This document shows, piece by piece, positions 2,984 to 32,855 of a stretch of DNA of 64,000 bases. Every line of letters begins with the position of its first letter. Position 1 is the first letter of the stretch. This stretch comes from Limnohabitans sp. B9-3 (lineage in GTDB: Bacteria > Pseudomonadota > Gammaproteobacteria > Burkholderiales > Burkholderiaceae_C). The stretch covers positions 62,001 to 126,000 of the forward strand of contig NZ_NESI01000005.1 of the NCBI RefSeq assembly GCF_002778325.1, given 5' to 3'. The position numbers and the translations under genes are program-made. The notes under the pieces are model-generated. The model searched no databases. It had not been told where the DNA came from and saw only the letters and a program-made list of their open reading frames with translations.

Positions 2984-5900
2984 TTAGCCCACCCACTTGC
3001 GCGCATTGCGCCACATGCGCATCCAAGGGCTAAACGCGTCCACGCCGCCAGAAGCGGCCAAGTCTGTCCAACTCATCTGCACGTTACGGAACACGCGCTC
3101 GGGGTGCGGCATCATGGCTGTGAAGCGACCGTCTGCTGTGGTGACGGATGTCAAACCACCGGCGCTGCCGTTGGGGTTGAAAGGGTAGGCTTCGGTCGCT
3201 GCGCCGTGGTTGTCCACAAAACGCATGGCTGGCAAGGCTTTGGTTGCGTTGCCACGTTGGCTGAAATTTGCAAAGCCTTCGCCGTGCGCCACGGCGATGG
3301 GCAGACGTGCACCGGCCATGCCTGCAAAGAACAGAGACGGTGATTCCAACACTTCCACCATGCTCAAACGCGCTTCAAAGCGCTCGCTTTGGTTGGTGGT
3401 GAAGCGTGGCCAGTGTTCAGCGCCAGGAATGATGTCGGCCAACTCGGCAAACATTTGGCAACCGTTGCACACGCCCAAACCGAAGGTGTCGGTGCGTGCA
3501 AAGAACTGCTGCATTTGCTCAGACAAGACGGGGTTGAACGTGATGCTTCGCGCCCAGCCAATGCCTGCGCCCAAGGTGTCGCCGTAGCTGAAGCCACCAC
3601 ACGCCACCAAGCCTTTGAAGTCTTGCAGCTTGGCGCGTCCTGTTTGCAGATCGGTCATGTGTACGTCGTAGGCATCAAAGCCGGCTTCGGCAAAGGCGTA
3701 GGCCATCTCGATGTGAGAGTTCACGCCCTGCTCGCGCAGCACGGCCACTTTGGGTTTGGCGGCCACGTTGATGAACGGGGCGGCCACGTTGTCGGTGATG
3801 CCTTCGGGCAAATGCACATGCATGCCGGGGTCGTTGGGGTTGCCAGCGGCGGCGTGTTCGGCGTCGGCGCAAGCGGGGTTGTCGCGCTGTTGGCAAATCT
3901 TCCAGCTCACGCTGTCCCACACTTGGTGCAAGTCCGCCAGCTTGGCGGTGAAGACTTCTTTGGTGTCGCGCCACACGCTGATGGCGCCTTTGCCGTGGTC
4001 CAACTGAGCTGATGCGGGACGGGTTTTGCCCACAAAGTGGCTGTGCTTGGACAGGCCATGCTCACGAAGGGTTTGCATCACTTCGTTGCGTTCAGCGGTA
4101 AGCACCTGCAGTACCACGCCCAACTCTTCGTTGAACAAGGCTTGCAGCGTCAGCTCTTCGCGACGGGCGCTCACCTGTGAAACCCAGTTCTTGGTGTCTC
4201 CATATTCGGCGCGGCTGTCGTGGATGCCGTCACCTTCGGTGATGAGCATGTCCACATTCAGCGCCACACCCACTTGGCCAGCAAAAGCCATCTCGCACAC
4301 GGCTGCCATCAAGCCACCGTCGCTGCGGTCGTGGTACGCCAAGATCTTGCCTTGCGCGCGCAAGGCGTTCACGGCATTGACGAGGTTGACCAAGTCTTGT
4401 GCATCGTCAAGGTCTGGCACTTGGTCGCCAGCTTGGTTGAGCACTTGGCCCAAGATACTGCCAGCCATGCGGCGCTTACCCTCGCCCAACTGCACCAACA
4501 CCAAGGTGGTGTCTTCGGTGTTGTTGAGCTGCGGCGTGAGCGTGCCGCGCACATCGGGGATGGACGCAAACGCGCTGATGATCAGGCTCACAGGCGACGT
4601 CACTTTTTGGGTCTCGCCGTTCTCGCTCCATTGCGTACGCATCGACAAACTGTCTTTGCCCACGGGGATGGAAATGCCCAATGTTGGGCACAGCTCTAAG
4701 CCCACGGCTTTCACGGTGTCGTACAACGCAGCGTCTTCACCGGGCTCGCCGCAAGCGGCCATCCAGTTGGCGCTGAGTTTGACGCGCGGCAACTCAAACG
4801 GAGCAGCCAACAAGTTGGTGATGGCCTCTGCCACGGCCATGCGGCCTGAGGCGGGGGCGTCGAGAGACGCGAGCGGCGTGCGCTCGCCCATGCTCATGGC
4901 TTCGCCGGCAAAGCTTTGGTAGTCGGCCAAGGTCACGGCCACGTCGGCCACGGGAACTTGCCACGGGCCCACCATTTGGTCGCGGTGCGTCAGGCCACCC
5001 ACGGCGCGGTCGCCAATGGTGATGAGGAATCGTTTGCTGGCCACGGTGGGGTGGCTCAGCACGTTGATGACGGACTCTTGCAAGCTCACGCCTGTCAAGT
5101 CCATGGGGGCGCTGGTGCGCTCAACGCGTGTGACGTCGCGGTGCATCTTGGGTGGTTTGCCTAGCAGCACGTTCATGGGCATGTTGACGGCAGCCCCCAC
5201 GCTCCCCACTGCGTGTGGGTCACTGCCCCCCGAGGGGGTGCTTAAATGGTGTGCCAACGTTGCATCTTCATTGGCAACGGTGAGATGACGCTCTTCGGTT
5301 GCCACACCCACCACCGCAAACGGGCAACGCTCACGCTCGCAGAAGGCTTTGAATTGTTCCAGCGACTCGGGCGCAATGGCCATCACGTAGCGCTCTTGGC
5401 TTTCGTTCGACCAAATTTCTTTGGGGGCCAAGCCAGATTCTTCGAGGGGTACAGCGCGCAAATCAAAACGTGCGCCACGGCCTGCGTCGTTGGTCAGCTC
5501 AGGAAACGCGTTGGACAAACCTCCCGCGCCCACGTCGTGAATGGCGAGGATGGGGTTGTTCTTGCCTTGCGCCCAGCAATGGTTGATCACCTCTTGTGCA
5601 CGACGCTCAATTTCGGGGTTGCCGCGTTGCACAGAGTCAAAGTCCAGTTCAGCCGCGTTGGTGCCGCTGGCCATCGAGCTGGCGGCGCTGCCACCCATGC
5701 CGATGCGCATGCCGGGGCCTCCGAGTTGAATCAACAAGCTGCCTGCAGGGAACTCAATCTTCTTGGTTTGTTCGCTGTCAATGACGCCCAAGCCACCCGC
5801 AATCATGATGGGCTTGTGGTAGCCGCGGGTCACGCCCGCCACGTCTTGCTCGTACTCTCGGAAGTAGCCGGTCAGGTTGGGACGGCCAAACTCGTTGTTA

Positions 5901-7048
5901 AACGCAGCGCCACCCAAAGGGCCCTCGGTCATGATTTGCAAAGGGCTGGCCATGTGTGAGGGGCGGCCCAAACTTTTGCCATCCGTGCTGCCCCACAGCT
6001 TGGACACCGTAAAGCCAGACATACCCGCCTTGGGCTTAGAGCCTCGGCCGGTAGCGCCTTCGTCGCGAATCTCGCCGCCATTGCCGGTGGAAGCACCGGG
6101 GTAAGGCGAAATGGCGGTTGGGTGGTTGTGAGTTTCGACCTTCATCAAAACATGGTTGGTGGCCGACACTTTGCCGTACTGAGGCAAGTCTTTGCCATTG
6201 TTGGTGGCCAAAAAACGTTCGACGGTGTGGCCTTCCATGATGGAGGCATTGTCCGAATACGCCACCACCGTGTATTGCGGACTGGTTTTTTCGGTGTGGC
6301 GAATCATGCCAAACAGGCTGTGCGATTGCGCTTCGCCGTCAATGGTGAACTCAGCATTGAAAATCTTGTGGCGGCAGTGTTCGCTATTGGCTTGCGCGAA
6401 CATCATCAGCTCCACATCGGTGGGGTTGCGCTTAAGTTGGGTGAAGGCATTCACCAAATACGCAATCTCGTCCTCAGCCAAAGCCAAGCCCCAACGCTTG
6501 TTGGCGTCTTGCAATGCGGCCTCGCCGCCTTGGAGCACATCCACTTGCTCCATCGGTGCAGCGTGCAGTTCGGTGAACAAGCCCAGAGCTTCGTCGCGTG
6601 TGCGCATCACGGACTCGGTCATGCGGTCGTGCAGCACATCGGCAACGGCAGCAAGTTGTTCGGGCGTGAGCGTGGCTTTGCTCAGCAAGCCGTCTTTGAG
6701 TTGAATGTGAAACTCGGTGATGCGCTCAATGCGCTTGAGCTGCAAGCCGCAGTTGTGCGCAATGTCGGTGGCCTTTGATGCCCAAGGCGACACCGTGCCA
6801 AAACGTGGCGTGACCACGAGCAAGGTGCCTGCAGGTGATTTGAGAGCGGGCTCGCCATAAGTGAGCAAGGCAGCCAAAGTTTGCTGCTGTGGGGCGTCCA
6901 ACGCGGCCTCGGTCGCAGCCAAATGCACAAAACGCGCGCTCAAGCCTTTGATTTGCGGAGAAATCGCCGCCAAACGGGGCAAAAGCTGTTGAACACGGAA
7001 ATCGCTGAGGGCGTTGCCGCCTTCGAAAATGCTGAGGTGCAGGGACAC
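2984..7048 (-). CDS. purL: Phosphoribosylformylglycinamidine synthase (PurL, large single-chain type)
   Basis: The 1354-residue enzyme makes FGAM from FGAR, glutamine and ATP, the fourth step of purine synthesis. It has the N-terminal PurS-like part, the two AIRS-type halves ([28 protein letters not shown]) and a C-terminal glutamine amidotransferase with nucleophile Cys in LGVCNGCQM and the His-Glu pair in PHPERVF. It is about 60 residues longer than E. coli PurL; about 20 of these are a repeat-encoded insertion near 5193-5245. The start is GTG at 7048, with only a weak ribosome site. It is divergent from map. Confidence 0.97.
5193..5245. repeat. GC-rich palindromic repeat element inside purL
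   Basis: The stretch GCCCCCACGCTCCCCACTGC, then GTGTGGGTCACTGCC and CCCCGAGGGGGTGC, contains the short palindromes CCCCCGAGGGGG and CCCACTGCGTGTGGG. It has the look of the intergenic palindromic repeats abundant in Comamonadaceae (from memory). Here it is read in frame within purL as [19 protein letters not shown], placed in the linker before [13 protein letters not shown]. coli PurL has about 20 fewer residues at this point. Confidence 0.6.
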
Positions 7049-14798: not shown

Positions 14799-17700
14799 TC
14801 AAACGGACTCGACCATCGAGACGGCCGACTCCATGTCAACAGCCACGATGCGAGAAACGCCTTGTTCCTGCATGGTCACGCCGATGAGTTGTTCTGCCAT
14901 TTCCATGGCAATCTTATTGTGAGAAATAAAGAGGAATTGCGTCTCTTTGGACATGCTCGACACCAGTTTGGCGTAACGCTCGGTGTTGGCGTCGTCCAGC
15001 GGCGCGTCCACCTCGTCGAGCAAACAAAACGGGGCGGGGTTGAGCTGAAAAATGGCAAACACCAAGGCAATCGCGGTCAACGCTTTTTCGCCACCGGACA
15101 GCAAGTGAATGGTTTGGTTTTTCTTGCCAGGTGGCTGGGCCAGCACTTGCACGCCCGCATCCAAAATCTCGTCGCCCGTCATCACCAGTTTGGCATTGCC
15201 GCCACCGAACAGTTCGGGGAACATGCGGCCAAAGTGCTCGTTGACGATCTTGAAAGTGCCGCCCAAGAGCTCGCGGGTTTCGCCGTCGATCTTGCGAATG
15301 GCGTCTTCCAGCGTGTTCATGGCGTCGGTCAAATCTTTGGTTTGTGAGTCCAAAAATACCTTGCGTTCGCTGGCAATGGCCAACTCGTCCAAGGCGGCCA
15401 AGTTGACGGCTCCCAAAGCCGTGATGTCGCGGTTCAAGCGGTCAATCTCGCCTTGCAAACCGCCTAAGCGCACGTTGTTGACTTGGATGGAGGCGCCCAC
15501 GGCCTCGAGGTCGGCTTGGGCATCGGCCAGCAATTGGGTGTATTGCTCCAGCCCCAAACGCGCGGCTTGTTCTTTCAGTTGGAAATCGGTGATGCGTTGG
15601 CGCAAAGGCTCCAACTCGCGCTCCAACTGCAAGCGGCGCTCGTCGCTGGCACGCAGTTTGGTGGTGAGGTCGTCGTACTCGCTGCGCTTGGCACTCAAGG
15701 CAGCTTCGCGCGCCATCTTGATGTTCAAGGCGTTTTGCAGGCCGGCTTGCGCAGCGGCGTCGGTCAAACGGGTGAGGTCTTCTTGCACGCGCGTTTCTTC
15801 GGCAGCCACCGAGGCGGCTTGCTGGGTGGCGGTGTCGATGATGCGTTTGAGTTCGGCCTCACGGTTGGCCAAGCTGCGTTGCGAGAACTGCGCTTCTTGG
15901 GCTTGACGCTCCAAGCTGCGTTGTTGTTCGCGGCTGTCGTTCAAGCGACGCTCGGCGTTGATGACGGCGTCGTCGAGCTGGGCGTGGCGCTCTTGGCTGT
16001 CGGCCAATTGCATGTCGAGTTCTTCAAAGCGACCTTCCGCGTTCACGCGGCGCTCTTGCAAGTCAGCCAATTGGGCCTCAACTTCTGCCAAATCGCCACT
16101 CAGCTGAGCACTACGAGCGCGGGTTTGTTCGGCCAATTGTGTGAGGCGCAAGGTTTCGACTTGCAACTCATGGGCGCGCGCTTGGGCAGCCGTGGCTTCG
16201 GCACGGATGCTGACCAAACGCTGCGACGACTCGCTATACGCAGCCTCAGCACGCACCAAGTTGTGGCGCGCTTCATCGCTGATGAAAGCTTGCGCTTTGG
16301 TGCTTTTGTCGAGGTTTTCGATTTCTTGGGCACGGGCCAGCAAGCCCGATTGGGCGCTGTCTTGGGCGTAAAACGTGACGCTGTGGGCGCTGATGGCGTG
16401 GCCACTGGGCACATACATCACTTGCCCAGGCTGCAAACTGGCGCGTTTGGCCAAGGCCTCGTCCAAGTTGGGCGCGGTGAAGCAGCCACTCAGCCATTCG
16501 GTGAGCAAGCCTTGCAGGCCCGCATCATTCAAACGCAGCAAGTCAGACAAGCGCGGCATGGCGCTGGAGGTGCTTGGCGCTGAGGCGATCGGTGGTGTGT
16601 AAAACGCCAGTTTGGCGGGTGGCGCGTCGGTTTGAAAAGCGCGCACGATGTCCAAACGGCTGACTTCGAGCGAAGCCATGCGCTCCCGCAAGGCGGCTTC
16701 AAGCGCGTTTTCCCAACCGGCGTCGATGTGGATGCGGCTCCACAAAGCTTGCAACCCGTCCAAGCCGTGCTTGGTCAACCAAGGCTTGAGCTTGTCGTCG
16801 GTTTGGACCTTTTCTTGCAGGGCTTTGAGGGCTTCCAAGCGAGCAGAAATGTCGGCTTGCTTGGCTTGCTCGGTGTTGACGTTTTGCTGCGCGGTGCGAC
16901 GGGCTTCGTCGAGTTGCGGCACGTTGGCTTGCAACTCTTCGAGCTGCGCGGCCGTGATTTCGGCGGTGGCTTGCGCGTCTTGCAACTGCTCTTGCAGGTG
17001 GGTCAAGCGCACTTCATCGGGCGATGCCAAGGCGTTGCGGTCGGCGCTCAAGCGCTCGTGGCGGGCGTTGAGGGTGCGGCTTTGCTCTTCAATGTTGCGC
17101 TGGTCAGCGGCCAAGACCTGAATTTGCTGCTGCACCTGCGACACGGAAGCACGTTGTTCGTTGCTGCGTTGTTGGGCGTTGCGCACGGCATCTTCCAAGT
17201 CGGGCAGCTGCATGGCTTGCTCTTCCACCTGGGCGGCGAGCATGACGGCGCGTTCTTCGCCATCCATGGCAGCCGAGGCCAAGTTTTCGATTTCTTCCAG
17301 CGCTGTTTCGGACTGTGACGCCCAATGCGCGGTTTGTTCTTTGATTTGCACCAAACGGGCTTCGGCCCTTTGGCGGCCTTCCACCACAAAACGAATTTCG
17401 GCCTCCAAGCGCCCCACTTCGGCGCTTGCCTCGTACAGCGCGCCTTGGGCTTGGTTCACCTGATCGCCTGCCGCGTAGTGGGCTTGGCGAACGGTTTCAA
17501 GATCGGCTTCGATGTGGCGCAAGTCGGCAATGCGCGACTCCAAGTCGTTCACGGCTTTGTCGGCTTGGGTTTTCAAACCCGATTGGTCGACCTCGGCCTC
17601 GGCACGGCGCAAGAACCACAGCTGGTGCTGTTTGAGCGTGACATCGCCTTGCAGGGCGTGGTAACGCTGGGCCACTTCGGCCTGCTTTTCCAGCTTTTCA

Positions 17701-18314
17701 AGGTTGGCGTTCAACTCGCGCAAGATGTCTTCGACGCGGGTCAAGTTCTCGCGAGTGTCACTCAGGCGGTTTTCGGTTTCGCGACGGCGCTCTTTGTATT
17801 TAGAAACGCCAGCCGCCTCTTCCAAGAACAAACGCAGCTCTTCAGGGCGCGATTCGATGATGCGGCTGATGGTGCCCTGGCCAATGATGGCGTAAGCGCG
17901 TGGGCCCAAACCCGTGCCCAAGAACACATCTTGCACGTCGCGGCGACGCACGGGTTGGTTGTTGATGAAGTAGCTGGAGCCACCATCTCGGGTCAGCACA
18001 CGCTTGACCGCAATCTCGGGGAACTGGCTCCACTGACCGCCGGCGCGGTGATCCGCGTTGTCAAACACCAACTCGACGCTGGAGCGGCTGGCCGGTTTAC
18101 GGGTGTTGGTGCCGTTGAAAATCACGTCTTGCATGGACTCGCCACGCAGCTCGCTGGCTTTGCTCTCGCCCAGCACCCAGCGCACGGCATCCATGATGTT
18201 GGATTTGCCGCAGCCATTGGGCCCCACTACGCCGACCAATTGGCCGGGCAGCAGAAAATTAGTGGGTTCCGCGAAGGACTTGAAACCCGATAACTTGATT
18301 GAATTCAGACGCAC
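14799..18314 (-). CDS. smc: Chromosome partition protein SMC
   Basis: SMC (1171 residues) is the condensin ATPase that organises and segregates the chromosome. Walker A GPNGCGKSN is near residue 32, the two coiled coils flank a hinge at roughly residues 500-650, and the C-terminal head has the signature LLSGGEKALTA and Walker B FCLLDEVDAPLDD. The start is GTG at 18314, preceded by AAGAGG at a good distance. It leads the operon with zipA, ligA and def. No scpA/scpB lies beside it. Confidence 0.97.
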   Translation of the reverse strand: MRLNSIKLSGFKSFAEPTNFLLPGQLVGVVGPNGCGKSNIMDAVRWVLGESKASELRGESMQDVIFNGTNTRKPASRSSVELVFDNADHRAGGQWSQFPEIAVKRVLTRDGGSSYFINNQPVRRRDVQDVFLGTGLGPRAYAIIGQGTISRIIESRPEELRLFLEEAAGVSKYKERRRETENRLSDTRENLTRVEDILRELNANLEKLEKQAEVAQRYHALQGDVTLKQHQLWFLRRAEAEVDQSGLKTQADKAVNDLESRIADLRHIEADLETVRQAHYAAGDQVNQAQGALYEASAEVGRLEAEIRFVVEGRQRAEARLVQIKEQTAHWASQSETALEEIENLASAAMDGEERAVMLAAQVEEQAMQLPDLEDAVRNAQQRSNEQRASVSQVQQQIQVLAADQRNIEEQSRTLNARHERLSADRNALASPDEVRLTHLQEQLQDAQATAEITAAQLEELQANVPQLDEARRTAQQNVNTEQAKQADISARLEALKALQEKVQTDDKLKPWLTKHGLDGLQALWSRIHIDAGWENALEAALRERMASLEVSRLDIVRAFQTDAPPAKLAFYTPPIASAPSTSSAMPRLSDLLRLNDAGLQGLLTEWLSGCFTAPNLDEALAKRASLQPGQVMYVPSGHAISAHSVTFYAQDSAQSGLLARAQEIENLDKSTKAQAFISDEARHNLVRAEAAYSESSQRLVSIRAEATAAQARAHELQVETLRLTQLAEQTRARSAQLSGDLAEVEAQLADLQERRVNAEGRFEELDMQLADSQERHAQLDDAVINAERRLNDSREQQRSLERQAQEAQFSQRSLANREAELKRIIDTATQQAASVAAEETRVQEDLTRLTDAAAQAGLQNALNIKMAREAALSAKRSEYDDLTTKLRASDERRLQLERELEPLRQRITDFQLKEQAARLGLEQYTQLLADAQADLEAVGASIQVNNVRLGGLQGEIDRLNRDITALGAVNLAALDELAIASERKVFLDSQTKDLTDAMNTLEDAIRKIDGETRELLGGTFKIVNEHFGRMFPELFGGGNAKLVMTGDEILDAGVQVLAQPPGKKNQTIHLLSGGEKALTAIALVFAIFQLNPAPFCLLDEVDAPLDDANTERYAKLVSSMSKETQFLFISHNKIAMEMAEQLIGVTMQEQGVSRIVAVDMESAVSMVESV

Positions 18315-26395: not shown

Positions 26396-26425
26396 AAGGG
26401 TTAGCAAATTACTTTGCTAACCCTT
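26396..26425 (-). terminator. Original terminator of the tRNA-Lys gene, now displaced
   Basis: A perfect 13-base stem AAGGGTTAGCAAA/TTTGCTAACCCTT with loop TTAC is followed on the minus strand by a T-rich tail (TTTTGCTTTTT). It lies just beyond the distal copy of the 47-base tRNA repeat, exactly where the terminator of the minus-strand tRNA gene would be before the island inserted. Confidence 0.75.
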
Positions 26426-26431
26426 GAATAC

Positions 26432-26478
26432 TTGGTGGGACCAGCGGGGGTCGAACCCACGACAAACGGATTAAAAGT
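26432..26478. repeat. Distal attachment-site repeat (47 bp)
   Basis: This copy contains the tRNA-Lys sequence from the anticodon loop to the CCA end plus two bases, but the 5' half of the tRNA is missing: after AAAAGT the sequence is GTTGAACTC, unrelated to tRNA. It is therefore the att copy without a functional gene. It matches 32723-32769 at all 47 positions. Confidence 0.92.
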
Positions 26479-26743
26479 GTTGAACTCTGTACCACTATTC
26501 TGTACATTATCAACGTTTTTCAGCGTGGATAAAAAGTGGTGTGCGAGTTTTAGCATTGTACCCACCGTGCTAAAACAAAAAACTTTGCGTGAAGGTATTT
26601 TAACTATGCCTCTCATCCCCTCCACCATCATTTTCGCAAACACTATGTTTTTCACCACAAACCGTGCGTTTTCAGCGTGATTTGCGGCATTTACAAAACG
26701 TGGTGTGCGTAGCAACACGCTGTCACCCCCAACACAACGCACC
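26479..26743. other. Island end without genes; two partial direct repeats
   Basis: No plausible gene is seen in these 265 bases. The block GTTTT(T)CAGCGTG followed by GTGGTGTGCG occurs twice, at 26515-26545 and at 26668-26709, with different spacing (8 versus 20 bases). A 9-base stem GTTTTAGCA/TGCTAAAAC lies at 26547-26576. Repeats this close to the crossover site could be arm-type binding sites of the recombinase, which is a guess from position. Confidence 0.4.
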
Positions 26744-27082
26744 TTAGAAGCGTTGCTGTTGTTGCTTACGTAAGCGTTCAGCGTCACGCTGTCTGCGTTG
26801 CCTGTCACGTTCTGCCTGTAGTTGTTGTCTATCACGTTCAACATTGTTCTTCAGCCCTTGTATTCTTGCCTGTTCAGGCGATAACGGCGGCTTGGGTTTA
26901 ATGGTGCTGTCAAGCAACGTGTTGTCATCATCTCCCTCGTTAGTTTGTACTGGTGATGTAGCAACGCTATTCATCCCGTACTTGTATTGAAGAAGTAGTT
27001 TTGCGTGAATGGTGCTGTCAGCAAACACAATCGTTTTAACCAACTGCCCACCAACACGCACGGTAGCCAAGTATTTGTTCAT
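26744..27082 (-). CDS. Unknown small protein with a basic Gln/Arg coiled-coil tail
   Basis: From the ATG at 27082 (11 codons inside the longest frame) the product has 112 residues. The N-terminal half (YLATVRVGGQLVKTIVFADS, then a helix) looks like a compact alpha/beta fold; the second half is a highly charged helix of Arg, Gln, Asp and Lys ending in a Gln run. I recognise no family. It follows a hairpin terminator, so it is probably transcribed on its own. The start is uncertain as the ribosome site (GGGGG) is about 13 bases away. Confidence 0.5.
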   Translation of the reverse strand: MNKYLATVRVGGQLVKTIVFADSTIHAKLLLQYKYGMNSVATSPVQTNEGDDDNTLLDSTIKPKPPLSPEQARIQGLKNNVERDRQQLQAERDRQRRQRDAERLRKQQQQRF

Positions 27083-27135
27083 ACAAATATTTAGTACCCC
27101 CTGCCAACGCATCACCCAACCCCCTGTTTATCCAT

Positions 27136-27186
27136 AAGCACGGTTTTTCACCCCCACCAACTTGCGTGGCAAAAACCGTGCTTTTT
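27136..27186. terminator. Bidirectional hairpin terminator, copy 1
   Basis: A 13-base perfect stem, AAGCACGGTTTTT (27136-27148) and AAAAACCGTGCTT (27171-27183), encloses a 22-base loop and is followed by CTTTTT. It lies after the DUF6641-like gene on the minus strand. The same stem recurs at 29546-29599. Confidence 0.7.
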
Positions 27187-27213
27187 AATAAACCCTACCC
27201 TTACCCCCTACTT

Positions 27214-27654
27214 TTACCCACCAAACCCATCACGCAGTTTGTTAGCGGCGTTCTCAATCGCTGTGTCCAACTCACCTGCCAACACAGCCGCTTTAATCAC
27301 CTCCAACACCCCCACCAAGTCCTTTTCAGCCCCCACCTCAACAGCGTGTTTGCCCTTCGCCAGTTCCAACACCTTCGTTCCATAACGCACTGACAGCGAC
27401 AACTTGCCGTTATCAGCAACAAACCACCAAGCCTTTACACGCTTGTTCGTTTCTACTTGCTTGCGTAAGCCCGTTTCGTTGTCTGCAATAGTGCGGAACT
27501 TGGTTGCTGTGTATTGCGTCCCTGCTTGCTGTGCCTTCGCCAGTTCCATCTGTTCCCACAGCCGTTTTGCCAACTTGTTGCGTCGTTGCTGTACTGGCGA
27601 CATTTGGGTTGGTTTCTGTGCGGCTGTCAGTTTCAAAGTGCTCATCGTTGTCAT
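27214..27654 (-). CDS. DUF6641-like protein
   Basis: The 146-residue protein has the features I associate with the DUF6641 family: a polar N-terminus (SPVQQRRNKLAKRLWEQMELAKAQ), then KFRTIADNETG, KRVKAWWFVADNGKLSLSVRYGTKVLELAKGK and a helical C-terminus. No function is known. Family assignment is from memory of its conserved blocks. GAAAGGGAAA lies 6-7 bases before the first ATG, supporting 27654 as start; a second ATG three codons in is possible. Confidence 0.6.
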   Translation of the reverse strand: MTTMSTLKLTAAQKPTQMSPVQQRRNKLAKRLWEQMELAKAQQAGTQYTATKFRTIADNETGLRKQVETNKRVKAWWFVADNGKLSLSVRYGTKVLELAKGKHAVEVGAEKDLVGVLEVIKAAVLAGELDTAIENAANKLRDGFGG

Positions 27655-27776
27655 TGCGTTTCCCTTTCGTTAGTAGCAATGAACTAACTTTATTTTCGGT
27701 CTTCTGGTTTGGACAACCTCTATTTGGCAAACACTTTGGCAACCAAACAAAAAGCCACTTTTAGTCGCCTGTTCTT

Positions 27777-28136
27777 ATGTCGTTGCTAAATAGATGTATG
27801 AACGCATACAAGAACTACAAAGACGACGCACTGACAGCGGATTGGCTACGTGACATTGGTTTGAACGACAAAACTTTCAACACAGCCAAACTCAACGTTG
27901 TTAGGGCACAAACAATGGCACACACATTACTCACGCAACATCGTGCTCTGTTGTCCAACAGCCAACTCCATTCGCTTACAGCGTTTGAACAGGCTTGCGG
28001 CAACAAACGAGAACGCCAACGCATTACGGATGCTTTCTGTCATTGCGTTATGAACATCAACACCAACATCAATCGCAAACTATTCAAACAGCACCGAAAA
28101 CTAAACAAACCAAACATTACGGCAACCAACATCTAA
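27777..28136 (+). CDS. Unknown helical protein
   Basis: A 119-residue frame on the plus strand, the opposite direction to the two genes before it. It is Asn-, Lys- and His-rich and predicted largely helical (LNVVRAQTMAHTLLTQHRALL). No family is recognised and no good ribosome site precedes either the ATG at 27777 or that at 27798, so the start is open. Its codon use (AAC, CAA, ACA) matches the other island genes, which supports its being real. Confidence 0.45.
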   Translation: MSLLNRCMNAYKNYKDDALTADWLRDIGLNDKTFNTAKLNVVRAQTMAHTLLTQHRALLSNSQLHSLTAFEQACGNKRERQRITDAFCHCVMNINTNINRKLFKQHRKLNKPNITATNI

Positions 28137-28208
28137 ACAACTTAGGCAACGACAGCAGATAAACAACTGCTACATCAAAGTGTAAAAACCCAGTTTGTAA
28201 TATGACGG

Positions 28209-28580
28209 CTAATGAGACTGGACTTGTCGCACAACACTATGGAGGCGTGCGACGTATAAGTGAATGCCGCAAAGTTTCACACCAATCAAGTCAATGCTGA
28301 AGTGTGTTGAGAGTTTCAATACGATCGTCTCTCATAAAACTTATCCATAGTCGTGTCGATGGGCAATCGCTATCAACACTATGCGACGGACTGATGTGAC
28401 TTTTTCAAGTCGCATAGCCGTCGTATGCTCCAAACAATCATCGAACTTCAAACATCAACTTGTTAAAAAATGTGCTGAACAAAACACAGAGCGACAGCGA
28501 AAGTGTTTTGTGACAGCACAAGCGTACGCAGTACGCTCTTAAACGTTTAGTACTGGTGTTAGATTAAATCACCAGCATCA
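28209..28580. ncRNA. Candidate large structured RNA (or structured origin) in the island
   Basis: No plausible gene is present. Instead there is a dense series of complementary segments. GACTTG 28221-28226 pairs with CAAGTC 28287-28292 and encloses GTCGCAC 28226-28232/GTGCGAC 28247-28253 and GTGAA 28260-28264/TTCAC 28276-28280, a three-way junction. ATGAGA 28212-28217 pairs with TCTCAT 28330-28335. ATGCGACGG 28381-28389/CCGTCGTAT 28418-28426 encloses ATGTGACT/AGTCGCAT. TGTGCTG 28471/CAGCACA 28514 encloses ACAAAACAC/GTGTTTTGT. AGCGTAC/GTACGCT 28521-28537 and CTGGTG/CACCAG 28553-28575 follow. The 10-mer CAACACTATG occurs twice (28232, 28374). Strand and function are unknown; a single-strand, replication or transfer origin is the alternative. 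Confidence 0.4.
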
Positions 28581-28940
28581 TTATTTTCTGTATCACGCAA
28601 AAACTACAGCCCAAAAATTCTGTATGTACAAATGGGATTTCACGGCTAAACGCACAGCAACGCATCAAAACGCTGTTTTAAGCAATCGTTTTAATGTCGT
28701 TGTCCGCTACGAACACGAGCAACAAAAAGATAGCGTGTAGGGCGTTTTAAGCGTTCTTTCCGTTTTGTGTCCGTTATGCCACGCATCACCTTAAATACTA
28801 CGAGATAACAGAATACGCAAACTACTTGGTCTGCGTTTTAAGTTGTTGATTTTGAACAAATCAGCATCAACCCGCCAACTTATCGGGTTTCACTTGTCCA
28901 AACACCAACAAAGAAAACATACTTAAAGCACACAACTTAT
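28581..28940. other. Gene-free stretch with CGTTTTAA repeats upstream of the second recombinase
   Basis: No plausible gene is seen. The octamer CGTTTTAA occurs at 28687, 28743 and 28834, with TGTTTTAA at 28674. A 6-base stem AACCCG/CGGGTT with a 9-base loop lies at 28869-28889. Spacing of the repeats (56 and 91 bases) is not regular enough for classic iterons; they could be recombinase or regulator binding sites. Confidence 0.35.
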
Positions 28941-28952
28941 TTGGAGAACATT

Positions 28953-29525
28953 ATGGCAACAGCAAAATCACTTACCCCAGCAGAACTTGAGAAAGTTTTG
29001 TCACACATCGCACAACACCCAAACGCAGAACGCAATCGACTGATGCTGATGATTGGTGTAATGGCAGGTCTGCGTGTTGGCGAGATTTCAGGTTTGACAC
29101 TTGGTGACGTACTTGACGCAGATGGCAAGGTACGTAGTGAGATTTATTTGGCAAGTCACCGCGTCAAACACGGAAATGCTCGCACTATCTTTTTGAACAC
29201 ACGCATTCAGCAAGAACTGACCAAGTTCATCGCAACCAAAATATTACGAGACGAACACTTACCTTTGTTCTCGACACATCGTGGCGTTCGTTGCTCGTTC
29301 AGCCCAAACACACTTGCCCAGCACTTTTATTGGTTGTTTAAAAACGCAGGTGTAAAAGGTGCCAGCAGTCACTCTTGCCGCAAGACGTTTTTGACATCAC
29401 TAGCATCACAAGGTGTCAGCGTATTCGTTCTCGCAAGTTTGGCAGGACATAAATCCATCACAACCACCCAACGCTATATCACCACAAACGATGACGTGAA
29501 ACGCAAGGCTGTTGAACTTGTCTAA
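28953..29525 (+). CDS. Short tyrosine recombinase, catalytic domain only (FimB-size)
   Basis: The 190-residue protein contains the full active-site set of tyrosine recombinases: R41 (AGLRVGEI), K72, H140 and R143 (SHSCRKTF), H166 (LAGHKS) and nucleophile Y175 (RYI). It lacks the N-terminal core-binding domain, as do FimB/FimE-type invertases of about 200 residues. The ATG at 28953 is chosen because TTGGAG lies 6 bases upstream; a TTG four codons earlier would bury that site. It is a second recombinase beside the 421-residue integrase and may act in inversion, excision or resolution. Which, is not visible. Confidence 0.8.
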   Translation: MATAKSLTPAELEKVLSHIAQHPNAERNRLMLMIGVMAGLRVGEISGLTLGDVLDADGKVRSEIYLASHRVKHGNARTIFLNTRIQQELTKFIATKILRDEHLPLFSTHRGVRCSFSPNTLAQHFYWLFKNAGVKGASSHSCRKTFLTSLASQGVSVFVLASLAGHKSITTTQRYITTNDDVKRKAVELV

Positions 29526-29545
29526 CTTAAAGGTGTAGGTTTAAC

Positions 29546-29599
29546 AAAAAGCACGGTTTTTCACGCAACCAAACAGCATTGGCAAAAACCGTGCTTTTT
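29546..29599. terminator. Bidirectional hairpin terminator, copy 2
   Basis: A 16-base perfect stem, AAAAAGCACGGTTTTT and AAAAACCGTGCTTTTT, with a 22-base loop. T runs occur on both strands, so it can end both the plus-strand recombinase message and minus-strand transcription coming from 30291. Its stem core is identical to that of 27136-27186. Confidence 0.8.
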
Positions 29600-29670
29600 A
29601 ATAAACCGTGTCCTACCTGACCATCAGACCAACAAGACCAAGCCGACCAACCCCTGCCAAGCCCCTATTT

Positions 29671-30291
29671 TTAAGGCTTCCCAGCCCTACCCCCTGCTTT
29701 ACCCCTGCCTTTAGCCAGTTCTCGCTCGTGCTCTTCAAGCATCTCAAGTTGCTCTAACTCTTCAGGTGTCATTTTTTTTCGAATCTCCGCTCGTATTACA
29801 TCTTCCATAGCATCCAGTTCATCACGCCTTCTTGTCATCGCATCAGTTTGTGCCACATCCACTTTTGCCAAGTGTGCTCGTTTCAATTCATTGTTTGCGG
29901 CTAAGTGTGCTTGATACGCTTCTTTTCCCTCATCTCTTGCGGCAAAGTATGCATCCAAGTAAATCCGTGCCGCTCTTACTTCTGCTCTTTCAAGTCGCTC
30001 ATCAAGTGCATCACCAATATCTTCATTTGCTTCACTTAAAGCCTTTTCATAAGCCTCAATATAAATCTCACGCTTCGTCTTCCAACCAAGTTCTCGCTCT
30101 TCTTCTTTTGTACGTGCTCGTTTTACTTTTCTCAACGCTTGTTGTTCAGTCCAAGCCGCATCCATTGCCGCAATCTGTTCATCACTCAGCAAAGCCTTTA
30201 CATCTCGTGCGGCAACTTCTTTATCTGCCTTCAAGTCAGCAAGTCTTTGTGCCAGCCGTTCTGGCAAGTGTGTTCCATCAAGTTTTGGCAT
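29671..30291 (-). CDS. Unknown charged, helical coiled-coil protein
   Basis: The 206-residue product is almost entirely Ala, Glu, Lys, Arg, Asp and Leu with heptad-like spacing, so it should form long helices or a coiled coil. The C-terminus ends in a Gly/Lys/Arg tail (KGRGKAGGRAGK). There is no signal peptide, membrane helix or recognisable catalytic motif. It follows a hairpin terminator and ends before copy 2 of the bidirectional terminator, so it is a single-gene unit. Its function is unknown. Confidence 0.6.
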   Translation of the reverse strand: MPKLDGTHLPERLAQRLADLKADKEVAARDVKALLSDEQIAAMDAAWTEQQALRKVKRARTKEEERELGWKTKREIYIEAYEKALSEANEDIGDALDERLERAEVRAARIYLDAYFAARDEGKEAYQAHLAANNELKRAHLAKVDVAQTDAMTRRRDELDAMEDVIRAEIRKKMTPEELEQLEMLEEHERELAKGRGKAGGRAGKP

Positions 30292-30299
30292 AAATGAAA

Positions 30300-30326
30300 A
30301 CAGCGTGATTTTTTACGTCACGCTGT
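30300..30326 (-). terminator. Hairpin terminator
   Basis: A 9-base stem ACAGCGTGA/TCACGCTGT with a 9-base loop is followed on the minus strand by TTTCATTT. It lies after the stop of the small membrane protein gene at 30343 and ends the block that starts at the island integrase side. Confidence 0.6.
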
Positions 30327-30342
30327 CCTTTGTATTTAGGTT

Positions 30343-30549
30343 TTACCATCTTGTATTGGAAATACACCACCACTCGTTATCTTCAAATCTCAAACAATTT
30401 TGATATGGAGAGAACAAGTAATACCCCATTACAAGTAGAACTGAAATAAACAGCACTCTTACAAAGAATTTTTTATCAGCGTTGAATTCATCTTTCAACT
30501 TACTTTTGAAAGATTTTTCTTCTTCAATATTGATTGATTCTTTATCCAT
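30343..30549 (-). CDS. Small single-span membrane protein of unknown function
   Basis: The 68-residue product has an acidic/basic cytosolic N-terminus (about 27 residues), one hydrophobic segment (VRVLFISVLLVMGYYLF) and a short outer tail with two cysteines and a Trp pair. It lies 7 bases after the H-NS-like gene. Small membrane proteins are common in phage-related islands, as superinfection exclusion factors or toxins among others, but nothing here shows which. Confidence 0.5.
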   Translation of the reverse strand: MDKESINIEEEKSFKSKLKDEFNADKKFFVRVLFISVLLVMGYYLFSPYQNCLRFEDNEWWCISNTRW

Positions 30550-30556
30550 TCATCAG

Positions 30557-30802
30557 TCACTTCTTTGCTGGTGCTTTTTTAGCGGCTGTCTTTTTTGCCG
30601 CCGCTTTGTCACCAGTTGCTTTAGGTTTTCCTTTAACTTTCAAGCATCCACGCAGTTGCGTCGCAGTGAAACCGTGTTGCTTACACAACTTCTTTACCAT
30701 TTCCAAGTCAGCATCTTTTGACGCTTCAAGCAACTTCTTCTTTTCATCAGCAAGTGCTTTTTCTTGTGCTTCAATTTCACTCAATCGTTGGCTTGTACTC
30801 AT
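30557..30802 (-). CDS. H-NS-like small protein with a Lys/Ala tail
   Basis: From the ATG at 30802, which has AAAGGAG 8 bases upstream, the product has 81 residues. The first half is a helical, charged segment like the H-NS oligomerisation coil, followed by KKLCKQHGFTATQLRGCL, close in pattern to the EYGLTAxDLG linker of betaproteobacterial H-NS proteins. In place of the usual C-terminal DNA-binding loop there is a histone-H1-like tail of Lys, Ala and Pro. It may bind DNA through this tail and silence or compact the island. The H-NS link is by pattern only. Confidence 0.5.
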   Translation of the reverse strand: MSTSQRLSEIEAQEKALADEKKKLLEASKDADLEMVKKLCKQHGFTATQLRGCLKVKGKPKATGDKAAAKKTAAKKAPAKK

Positions 30803-30818
30803 TTCAGTTTCTCCTTTG

Positions 30819-31277
30819 TTAGCGTTTATTTTTAGCCGATAAAAATCTAAGTAATGTAGTTTTACCAATCAACTTCAAACCTACTGAATTTGACATTGGA
30901 TACTTTTCAAAAGCCCCAACACCTAAATTCAACATTCTTACGCTTTCCCCAAAAAATGTACCTATGTTTCGTATATTTTTAGAGAAATCACCCCTTAGTG
31001 AGGCCGCAATAAAACACATTGCTTCTAAACTTATGCTTCCAGTTTCCTCAATATGTTCAGCAACACCTTGTATATAAAAGGTGTAGAAATCGCTTTCATT
31101 TAATTTCTTTTCATTTGCGTAAAGCAAAGCACCAAAAATAGCAGATTCCATCAAAACGTTTTCTGGTTCTCTTTCATCTGTGTTGTACGCAGGATCGCAA
31201 AACAAATTCTTGTACGAACTCAAAATGTGCCACACCACCCGCTCCATATCTTTTTTTTCAAAAAAACCAGAAAACAT
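30819..31277 (-). CDS. Unknown 152-residue protein
   Basis: The frame ends 16 bases before the H-NS-like gene. It has a mixed helical composition with many Phe and Tyr residues (ESDFYTFYIQGVAEH, IGTFFGESVRMLNLG) and no membrane helix. No family is recognised. AT-rich codon use is stronger here than in other island genes, and a long A/T run lies over its start region. Confidence 0.5.
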   Translation of the reverse strand: MFSGFFEKKDMERVVWHILSSYKNLFCDPAYNTDEREPENVLMESAIFGALLYANEKKLNESDFYTFYIQGVAEHIEETGSISLEAMCFIAASLRGDFSKNIRNIGTFFGESVRMLNLGVGAFEKYPMSNSVGLKLIGKTTLLRFLSAKNKR

Positions 31278-31341
31278 AAAGCCATCCTTTAATAGTCATT
31301 TTTTTTCAATCATACCCAACTCAAAACAATAAGCAAGCACC

Positions 31342-32607
31342 CTACGCCAACTTATCTGCCGCCATCGTCGCCGTTAGTTTGCTGTAGTGCTTTTCTATCA
31401 TTGCGGCAGAGTTGCCCATCTGTTTTGACAAGGTGTGGATGTCCGTGCTGTTGCGTAGCAGTTCAAACGTGGCGTAGGTATGACGTAAAGAGTACAGCGT
31501 CCTTGTCTGCCCTTCCGTGTTCTTCAACAAGCCTGTGTCACGCATCAGCCGTCTAAACGTGCCGTTCATACTAGGCGGCTGATAACCGTCAGTAAAACGG
31601 AACAGCAAGTGCGGCACACGTTCAGCAAACAAGTCGTCAAAACTTATGTGCCCAATATCCGTTTGTCGTGCGTGTAGCCGTTTCAGCACATCAACTGCCC
31701 TGTGTTTTGCTATCAACCAACGCCCGCCAGTCTTGCCATCAACCCAAATCCGCAAGTACCTAACGCCCTTGTCCGTGTGCCACTCAATGTGCCGCCAACA
31801 AATACCCATTGCTTCTGTGCCGTGTCGCATTCCCGTTAGCAACAGCATCTCAATGTAGTCACGCAACAAGGGGCGTATTTCCTTTTCAACATCTCGCAAG
31901 CCCTTGTGTTGCCACGTTTCCATAAACGCCAACAACTGCGTGATTTCTTCTTCGCTGAACGCTGGGCGTGTTGTGCCCTTCTCGCCCTTTGTGGTTAGTT
32001 TTGGCACAGGCACACGCTCGCTGATGTAGCCACGCGACACAGCAACAGACAACAACTTGTTCCAAGCACTGGCGAAGTTCATCAACGTACTTGCTTTGGG
32101 TTTGCGACGCATCTGCCTGTCCCGCCACAACTCAAACTCAACGATGTCTGTGTGCGAGAGTTCTTCCAGCCGCTTGTCTTTGAAGTAGGGCAAAAAATAC
32201 TTCTCAATACATCCCACGTAGTCGCTGTAAGCAGTTCTTCCAGTGCTTGCGTCAATCTTCACTCTCAGTTCTGCCAGCGTCACCGCCGCAATCTGTGCGA
32301 ACGTGTGTGTTTGGTGTGCTAAACCTAACCGTTGTCTGTACCGTGCTTCGTCGTACAAGTCACAAGCAACGGCAACGGCGTGTTCTATGCTGGCTTTACG
32401 TGTGCTTTGGCGATACCAAGTGCCATCAGCAAGTTTGTAGCGGCATTGATACAAGAGGCTGCGGCTTCGTCTGTACAGCACCACTTCACCATCACGCAAA
32501 TGGATGTGCTGTGCGTTTGCTGTGGCAAGCGAAGCAAGTGCGTGTGACGTTTGTTTTGTCGTGTGGGGCTGTCGTGTGTTTTTGGGTGTTCGTTGCTGGG
32601 CTGACAT
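31342..32607 (-). CDS. int: Tyrosine recombinase (integrase) of the island
   Basis: The 421-residue protein has an N-terminal arm-binding part (residues about 35-100), a core-binding SAM-like domain (about 100-200) and the catalytic domain with R261 (TGMRHGTE), K292 (DGKTGG), R375-H376 in LYSLRHTY, N399 in MGNSAAM and nucleophile Y408 (EKHYSK). Tyr and Asn replace the usual His in two active-site positions, as in the phage-integrase subfamily with LYSLRHT and MGTSVAM. It is encoded 117 bases from the tRNA-Lys 3' end and points away from it, the normal place for a tRNA-targeting integrase. No clear ribosome site precedes the ATG. Confidence 0.93.
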   Translation of the reverse strand: MSAQQRTPKNTRQPHTTKQTSHALASLATANAQHIHLRDGEVVLYRRSRSLLYQCRYKLADGTWYRQSTRKASIEHAVAVACDLYDEARYRQRLGLAHQTHTFAQIAAVTLAELRVKIDASTGRTAYSDYVGCIEKYFLPYFKDKRLEELSHTDIVEFELWRDRQMRRKPKASTLMNFASAWNKLLSVAVSRGYISERVPVPKLTTKGEKGTTRPAFSEEEITQLLAFMETWQHKGLRDVEKEIRPLLRDYIEMLLLTGMRHGTEAMGICWRHIEWHTDKGVRYLRIWVDGKTGGRWLIAKHRAVDVLKRLHARQTDIGHISFDDLFAERVPHLLFRFTDGYQPPSMNGTFRRLMRDTGLLKNTEGQTRTLYSLRHTYATFELLRNSTDIHTLSKQMGNSAAMIEKHYSKLTATMAADKLA

Positions 32608-32680
32608 TTAGCAACGACGATGAACAGCGTGGAACTTAAAGTGCTGACTGAGTGTTTTGTTTGTACAGCACGGACGAAAA

Positions 32681-32712
32681 AAAACACCCCATACAGACGT
32701 ATGAGGTGTTTT
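32681..32712 (-). terminator. Replacement terminator for tRNA-Lys supplied by the island
   Basis: A 14-base stem AAAACACCCCATAC/GTATGAGGTGTTTT (one G-T pair) with loop AGAC is followed on the minus strand by TTTTCG. It starts 12 bases after the tRNA CCA end, inside the island, and so replaces the native terminator now at 26396. Confidence 0.8.
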
Positions 32713-32722
32713 CAGTTTTATT

Positions 32723-32769
32723 TTGGTGGGACCAGCGGGGGTCGAACCCACGACAAACGGATTAAAAGT
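32723..32769. repeat. Proximal attachment-site repeat (47 bp) within tRNA-Lys
   Basis: This copy is identical to 26432-26478 and forms the 3' half of the intact tRNA-Lys gene. The repeat begins at the anticodon loop, so strand exchange most likely takes place between anticodon loop and T arm, a common target zone for tRNA-specific integrases. Confidence 0.92.
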
Positions 32770-32799
32770 CCGCTGCTCTACCAACTGAGCTATGGTCCC
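32724..32799 (-). tRNA. tRNA-Lys (anticodon TTT)
   Basis: The 76-base gene has a complete cloverleaf: acceptor stem GGGACCA/TGGTCCC, D arm AGCTCAGTTGGTAGAGC, anticodon stem-loop GCGGACTTTTAATCCGT with TTT, T arm GTGGGTTCGACCCCC, and encoded CCA. It lies 56 bases after tcdA on the same strand, downstream of the tol-pal unit. Its 3' half is the integration site of the island. Confidence 0.97.
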
Positions 32800-32855
32800 A
32801 TCACGCTTAGTAAACAGTGTTAACTGTGTACCCTGCGAAGCCTCAAAGTATACTG

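Follow-up and report, generated by a model that had tools for sequence, protein, structure and literature searches.

What kind of element is the 6,291-bp unit at a tRNA-Lys gene of Limnohabitans sp. B9-3, and what does it encode between its recognisable genes? The unit lies in a window of 64,000 nucleotides (the whole stretch of DNA analysed; contig NZ_NESI01000005.1, positions 62,001 to 126,000) and is bordered by exact 47-bp attachment (att) repeats. In the original prediction, made from the sequence alone, it was described as a site-specific element resembling a phage satellite, with a large gene-free zone and no recognisable cargo. The zone indeed holds no recognised protein gene, but it encodes a conserved structured RNA. 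That this RNA represents a new class appears nearly certain, and the RNA and the small gene in front of it very probably form a module common to islands and phages. The module is located as follows (window coordinates; L and G numbers below are our labels for loci or contigs and for genomes or records; ORF, open reading frame).

27777 to 28136, plus strand: ORF119, the RNA's partner gene; from its likely start at 27798 it encodes 112 aa with net charge +9, predicted to be helical
28187 to 28545, plus strand: core of the structured RNA, about 360 nt, 3' end approximate (covariation, folding)
28187 to 28342, plus strand: R1, the modelled domain of the RNA (covariance model)
28201 to 28214, plus strand: motif m1, TATGACGGCTAATG, in the loop of hairpin P1; exact in 14 of the 35 upstream regions examined
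28236 to 28243, plus strand: 5' strand of pseudoknot P3, in the loop of P2 (helix score)
28344 to 28351, plus strand: 3' strand of pseudoknot P3, after P4 (helix score)
28381 to 28426, plus strand: hairpin P8, whose 3' arm contains motif m2 (28415 to 28427), also complementary to m1

On either strand the fold of the zone beats that of 20 shuffled sequences (z -3.8 and -4.8), and paired substitutions occur in the stem around m1 across 14 regions, which were selected by m1 itself. The R1 covariance model, of 150 positions, was built from 13 of the 14 island sequences, L023 being omitted for its odd 3' end. When these 13 were aligned by sequence only, 88.4% of the cells were paired and the covariation score was 0.457 versus 0.179 in shuffles (0 of 500); it fell to 0.126 or less when the partner was slid by 1-3 columns. 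With 26 sequences, in an alignment fitted to the model, 92.2% of the cells were paired and the covariation reached 0.690 versus 0.203 in shuffles (0 of 500). Pseudoknot P3, which lies outside the model, had a mean helix score of 7.85; with partners swapped between sequences the score was 4.96 +/- 0.25, and none of 20000 trials attained the observed value. It scored at least 6.3 in 25 of the 26 sequences, the exception being L091. Under symmetric mismatch scoring, P8 comprised 444 Watson-Crick, 37 G-T, 4 A-C and 16 other cells in 25 of the 26 sequences, L091 being excluded as its motif was not located. The G-T excess in P8 favours an RNA made from the plus strand; it gives a direction and not a probability, because these are related sequences and the count includes one conserved, recurrent G-T position. 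Folding of the phage sequences alone returned P2 and P6 and preferred the pairing of m1 with m2, without P8, so that P8 and the m1-m2 pairing may be alternatives.

Rfam 15 gave only tRNAs and chance-level matches, both in the window at the gathering score and in positions 26400-32850 at relaxed E-values, and the same was seen for six island loci and seven phage contigs. No account of this RNA was located in the literature covered, which left out most subscription journals, and matches to the motif letters were unrelated by title. The RNA class itself is secure, while its function is what we infer.

The link with phages came from uncultured virus contigs. Searching with m1 plus GCCGC as the pattern gave 12 virus contigs, all of which matched R1 (37-119 bits); one of them, L088, is the island contig already known as L070, and the other 11 all matched the model, built from islands only, at 37-106 bits. 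A second, looser pattern added four virus contigs (4 of 4 matching R1 at 86-94 bits), two of which, L118 and L121, have an extra T in m1. Because the contigs were picked by short motifs that are also inside the model, only the remainder of the R1 score is independent, and since exact motifs were used to gather them, the counts give no frequency among phages. A search of virus contigs with a P6-P8 pattern found nothing. The island recombinase, DUF6641 and integrase were absent from the examined stretches of the 11 contigs and of the four added ones. After merging of near-identical pairs (L090/L094, L096/L097, L119/L120), 12 distinct uncultured phage versions remained, seven of which showed phage hallmark genes. 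In L093, terS, terL and a portal gene directly follow the RNA; terL was also found in the records of L089, L090, L091 and L095 and, bringing the total to 6 of the 10 records searched, in that of L097, the partner of L096. A head-tail adaptor is present in L092 and a tail fibre protein in L096, and the phage nature of L087, L098, L118, L119 and L121 was taken from the IMG/VR collection and from genes named by eye. The phage and island RNAs formed two clean groups (28 sequences, L091 left out; support 0.937), a split consistent with one capture or an old divergence. A run of at least 7 T was observed in the P8 loop of 11 of the 12 phage versions (L087, L089-L093, L095, L096, L098, L118 and L121) and is shorter in most islands. 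The terL match of L097 (record G1237, 17415-18059) contains six in-frame TAG and one TAA, and may reflect amber recoding or a broken gene.

The small gene accompanies the RNA throughout. At all 26 R1 loci the stop of an ORF of 72-149 aa falls in the interval from 63 nt ahead of the RNA start to 19 nt past it, the ORF being defined, without a random control, as the longest one stopping within -160 to +40 nt of that start; three further phages share this placement. The net charge was +8 to +18 in the 25 small proteins measured (L091 not among them). Island small proteins and the longer form from five phages matched in hhalign (probability 91.8%, E 7.2e-7), and a weak tblastn match of ORF119 was seen in phage contigs L119 and L120. 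The AlphaFold model of ORF119 is a set of helices (pLDDT 86.7), for which no match at E <= 0.001 was found among structures in the PDB and viral models; the best viral match, an uncharacterised Caudovirales protein at E 0.21, was not counted.

The mobility of the unit concerns its borders, which are the following.

26432 to 26478: left att copy, 47 bp, identical to the tRNA-Lys 3' end; exact repeat, single copy in the empty site L107
32723 to 32769: right att copy, overlapping the tRNA-Lys 3' end; exact repeat
32724 to 32799, minus strand: tRNA-Lys(ttt) (tRNA detection; RF00005, 72.7 bits)
31342 to 32607, minus strand: integrase, 421 aa (PF00589 E 2.1e-7, phrog_1 E 9.9e-31)

The two repeats are exact and 6291 bp apart, and the integrase adjoins tRNA-Lys, as the original prediction had read from the sequence. 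The empty site, proposed at that time as a check, was found in the relative L107 (genome G848), where the left flank, one 47-bp att copy, the whole tRNA and the right flank are contiguous and match the window at 77% over 634 bp, 76 of 76 positions and 82% over 1504 bp for left flank, tRNA and right flank, respectively. The unit thus has the features of an integrative element at a tRNA gene, namely repeats of the tRNA 3' end, an adjoining integrase and a relative's empty site. Other tRNA-Lys loci of the genus, L108-L111, have different genes between flank and tRNA and gave no R1 match. An apparent operon for an efflux pump, named by eye, occupies the same chromosomal site in L108, L109 and L110; in L110 just 46 bp of the tRNA were matched, and a distant integrase relative follows.

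The remaining features of the unit are listed here.

26744 to 27115, minus strand: 123-aa ORF, with relatives or fragments in many sister loci
27126 to 27201: first copy of the 76-bp palindrome, at the 3' end of DUF6641, where L033, L034, L039 and L070 have similar ones
27214 to 27654, minus strand: DUF6641 protein, divergent from ORF119 (PF20346 E 3.2e-11, phrog_31551 E 1.7e-21)
28655 to 28952, plus strand: conserved leader of the recombinase gene, conserved in sequence and also present with other contents of the zone
28953 to 29525, plus strand: small tyrosine recombinase, 190 aa, without N-terminal domain (PF00589 E 1.5e-23)
29539 to 29614: 76-bp palindrome, copy 2, a probable two-way terminator
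29671 to 30291, minus strand: 206-aa ORF, recurring in L033, L034, L035, L044 and L070
30343 to 30549, minus strand: 68-aa ORF; no Pfam or PHROGs family, NCBIfam match at chance level
30557 to 30805, minus strand: 82-aa protein with a lysine-rich tail; no family in NCBIfam
30819 to 31277, minus strand: 152-aa ORF; no family in Pfam, PHROGs or NCBIfam

The two recombinases and the DUF6641-like protein that had been named from the sequence are confirmed by these family matches. Residues R41, K72, H140, R143, H166 and Y175 of the small recombinase, which we take to be catalytic, are invariant in four aligned sequences (the window and three relatives). Ten ORFs of the window were scanned against Pfam and PHROGs, and no capsid, relaxase or replicase family was matched, nor any methylase except for one chance-level match of the 206-aa ORF to phrog_6380 (E 0.88), in agreement with the earlier description. 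The H-NS-like label of the 82-aa protein has to be dropped, no H-NS family having been found in Pfam, PHROGs or NCBIfam; its relatives, with 37-84% identity, occur in six sister loci (L033, L034, L041, L042, L046 and L070). The palindromes had gone unmentioned. They were considered as recombination sites of the small recombinase, an idea rejected as the main one, and a two-way terminator is preferred because just the copy on the DUF6641 side recurs across relatives. An integron cassette, with attC-like palindromes at both module ends, was not seen in the 18 DUF6641 loci checked; a palindrome follows DUF6641 in 5 of these 18, and follows the recombinase in the window only. A promoter and terminator scan of the island gave counts near or below those of shuffles.

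The original prediction would have been refuted by the lack of any related unit elsewhere, but such units exist. The scan of genome contigs gave 37 loci with a relative of the small recombinase, by title mostly from Limnohabitans, other Comamonadaceae/Burkholderiales and Polynucleobacter, and many of them carry several of the same genes. The order common to many loci is 123-aa ORF, DUF6641, ORF119, non-coding zone, recombinase, variable genes and integrase. Integrase relatives 74-88% identical to that of the window are present in L033, L034, L035, L042 and L070, with tRNA-Phe, -Met or -Lys nearby. Eleven sequences with a tRNA, the window included, were tested for att repeats: these were exact in the window (47 bp), L034 (tRNA-Met, 53 bp), L035 (tRNA-Lys, 46 bp), and L042 and L070 (tRNA-Phe, 45 bp), inexact in L033 (tRNA-Phe, 46 bp at 89%), in pieces of 68-69 bp in L048, part of a tandem arrangement in L081 (75 bp at 97%), and not found in L066, L058 and L062. 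Two units stand in tandem in G708, with R1 copies 8.9 kb apart. Together, the att repeats, the integrase, the relative's empty site, the sister islands and the tandem units support the view of the window unit as a site-specific mobile element. Carriers of the RNA include Limnohabitans sp. 2KL-51, Limnohabitans sp. Rim28 and L. parvus II-B4; at E <= 0.001, R1 was found in 5 of 399 family, 5 of 84 genus and 1 of 369 class genomes, the own genome being counted each time, in scans with filters able to lose weak matches. The 4.0-kb unit of L035 (567-4659) at tRNA-Lys has an 88% identical integrase, a partial small recombinase and no R1 match, and may be a relative of the window island that underwent deletion. 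L039 and L057, contigs titled as Akkermansia muciniphila and Syntrophobacter metagenome-assembled genomes, hold an island of this Burkholderiales-type family, which may reflect wrong binning or a wide spread.

The slot between DUF6641 and the recombinase can be filled differently, which makes the RNA an exchangeable part in a core position. Polynucleobacter-1 RNA (RF01718) fills it in L037, L041 and L057; in L058 it lies just after DUF6641 and far from the recombinase. Its starts (L037:4278, L041:2732, L057:5923, L058:920) are about 180-250 nt from the DUF6641 start. The stretch conserved between L037 and L041 is about 500 nt, exceeding the 141-position Rfam model. A search of 250 family genomes with RF01718 gave no match, and the tool controls were likewise silent. 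A protein of 150-169 aa fills the slot in L040, L047, L050, L052 and L054; its family had only chance-level matches in Pfam and PHROGs, and GTTAC/GTAAC half-site arrays lie upstream of it in the two loci read (L040 gap 5444-5930, L050 gap 1443-1780). By eye these arrays are dense and iteron-like. Other ORFs occupy the slot in L045, L060 and L063; the 173-aa protein of L063 (5037-5558) has an HFH motif reminiscent, by eye, of rolling-circle Rep, with chance-level family matches. A motif marking the recombinase leader recurs in 14 of 35 regions; it starts 297-311 nt before the gene in 12 and 267 nt before it in L070, the match in L038 being spurious; RNAalifold gave no supported consensus structure for the leader.

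Taken together, we see about even chances for a minimal satellite-like element, integrated at a tRNA gene, that exploits a tailed phage late in infection by means of the module. The unit sits in the tRNA-Lys 3' end beside its dedicated integrase and would later be excised; the ORF119 protein would bind the RNA as transcription proceeds, and the resulting particle would act late in phage infection, a timing suggested by the place of the module among late-type genes in phages. The island's own copy of the module could then let the excised DNA benefit from, or divert, the late machinery of the helper (replication, packaging or late expression), and resolution or processing of this DNA would fall to the small recombinase with its leader. 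Because no replication or packaging protein was recognised, the island presumably uses something from outside, and a helper phage is indicated since the module is common to phages and sits among their late-type genes. A satellite-like life as such is likewise an evenly balanced proposition. A more specific version is rather doubtful: an undescribed phage RNA-protein particle, composed of the pseudoknotted RNA of about 360 nt and the small basic protein and used late for packaging or cell takeover, would have been captured once by tRNA islands that parasitise those phages.

Several observations weigh against the satellite reading. R1 occurs in a minority of the recombinase loci (10 of 37, with L036 counted via its twin L023 and several other loci incomplete). 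The distance between RNA and terL varies from about 0.6 kb in L093 and 3.6 kb in L090 to 13-16 kb in four others; a place of the RNA strictly beside the terminase was therefore rejected, and these distances do not single out a direct role in packaging. The clean separation of the RNAs gives no sign of recent exchange between phages and islands. No match was obtained when the zone was compared with named phages and plasmids by blastn, two phage RNAs used as queries had only chance-level matches among named phages, and two phage small proteins matched no named phage in tblastn. In the five of 84 genus genomes with R1, it belonged each time to an island of this family, so that no resident helper prophage was seen. 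ORF119 had no tblastn match in the first 11 phage contigs, so the phage link relies on profiles, and the profile match covers the longer phage form, the proteins of L087, L089, L091 and L095 being of 72-73 aa. As for the RNA, P1, P4 and P8 were missing from the phage-only fold, and outside P8 the ratio of G-T to A-C cells is just 12 : 6.

The module could instead serve replication and maintenance, the RNA and small helical protein acting as an RNA-based origin control that replicates the excised island, and likewise in phages. ColE1-type plasmids have an RNA primer and a small helical protein, and the slot looks like a core function and not cargo, because alternatives fill it in sister islands (the 150-aa protein with half-site arrays; the ORFs in L045, L060 and L063). 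These alternative proteins, however, match no replication family, late-type gene surroundings in phages would be an unusual location for an origin, and ORF119 has no confident fold match; we consider this explanation improbable. We give the same low weight to cargo for phage warfare, in which an RNA-protein pair would act in superinfection exclusion, defence or counter-defence, as a moron in phages and as a fixed gene pair in islands. In phages the pair is often located after tail and lysis-type genes (several named by eye), where morons are commonly found, and no defence family was seen in the window ORFs scanned with Pfam and PHROGs, PADLOC not being applied. The island pair, on the other hand, is tied to the conserved core and not to the variable part beside the integrase.

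Two further explanations deny the zone an independent RNA. It might be a DNA site, such as a single-strand origin or a packaging or recombination site, which elements of this type often need, and m1 and m2 are highly conserved; the complex, pseudoknotted covariation and the G-T cells of P8, far above A-C there (37 : 4) though unclear elsewhere, make this very unlikely. Even less credit is given to the zone being a long leader that regulates the small recombinase gene in cis: the zone lies directly upstream of that gene on the same strand in islands, but the RNA occurs without this recombinase in the examined stretches of phage contigs, and the recombinase retains its own conserved leader, about 300 nt long, where the RNA is absent (L037, L040, L041).

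Phage satellites such as P4, PICI and PLE carry recognisable satellite or packaging proteins. The island resembles them in being small and differs in that no satellite hallmark protein was recognised among the ten ORFs scanned (Pfam, PHROGs). The satellite interpretation of the original prediction gains a concrete phage link through the shared RNA and small-ORF module, and lacks the hallmark protein. In the part of the source available, abundant noncoding transcripts are described both for PLEs and for their helper ICP1, the latter of about 800 nt (PMC7567579). GOLLD and ROOL, large structured RNAs of phages and prophages with unknown function, often near tRNAs in the available parts of the sources (PMC12286853, PMC7567579), share the link with phages. 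They differ from the island RNA, which has no Rfam match to them in the window, the six island loci or the seven phage contigs, has a small gene alongside in every locus, and is about 360 nt long versus >800 for many GOLLD RNAs in the accessible text (PMC12286853). Polynucleobacter-1 RNA, listed in 2010 in a table row for Burkholderiales of fresh water and estuary (PMC2864571), adjoins DUF6641 in the sister loci L037, L041, L057 and L058, whereas RF01718 has no match in the window; a pattern built from three of its members found no virus contig. Tycheposons of aquatic bacteria are bordered by a tRNA and have a tyrosine recombinase (PMC10872708), a wording that, as far as the accessible part goes, also describes the window; they and VEIMEs are named as proposed marine satellites (PMC11389934). 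In the accessible parts of these two papers the examples carry metabolic cargo and no structured RNA module is mentioned.

The findings add a structured RNA class that has no counterpart in Rfam 15 at the thresholds used and that links phages with small chromosomal islands. They also show Polynucleobacter-1 RNA in a setting that recurs, next to DUF6641 in mobile islands; on the more specific and rather doubtful reading above, its corresponding place in sister islands would mean that a single satellite function is served by two or more unrelated RNA classes. If the module does work via a helper phage, these islands would follow a satellite strategy built on RNA, and not on capsid or terminase proteins.

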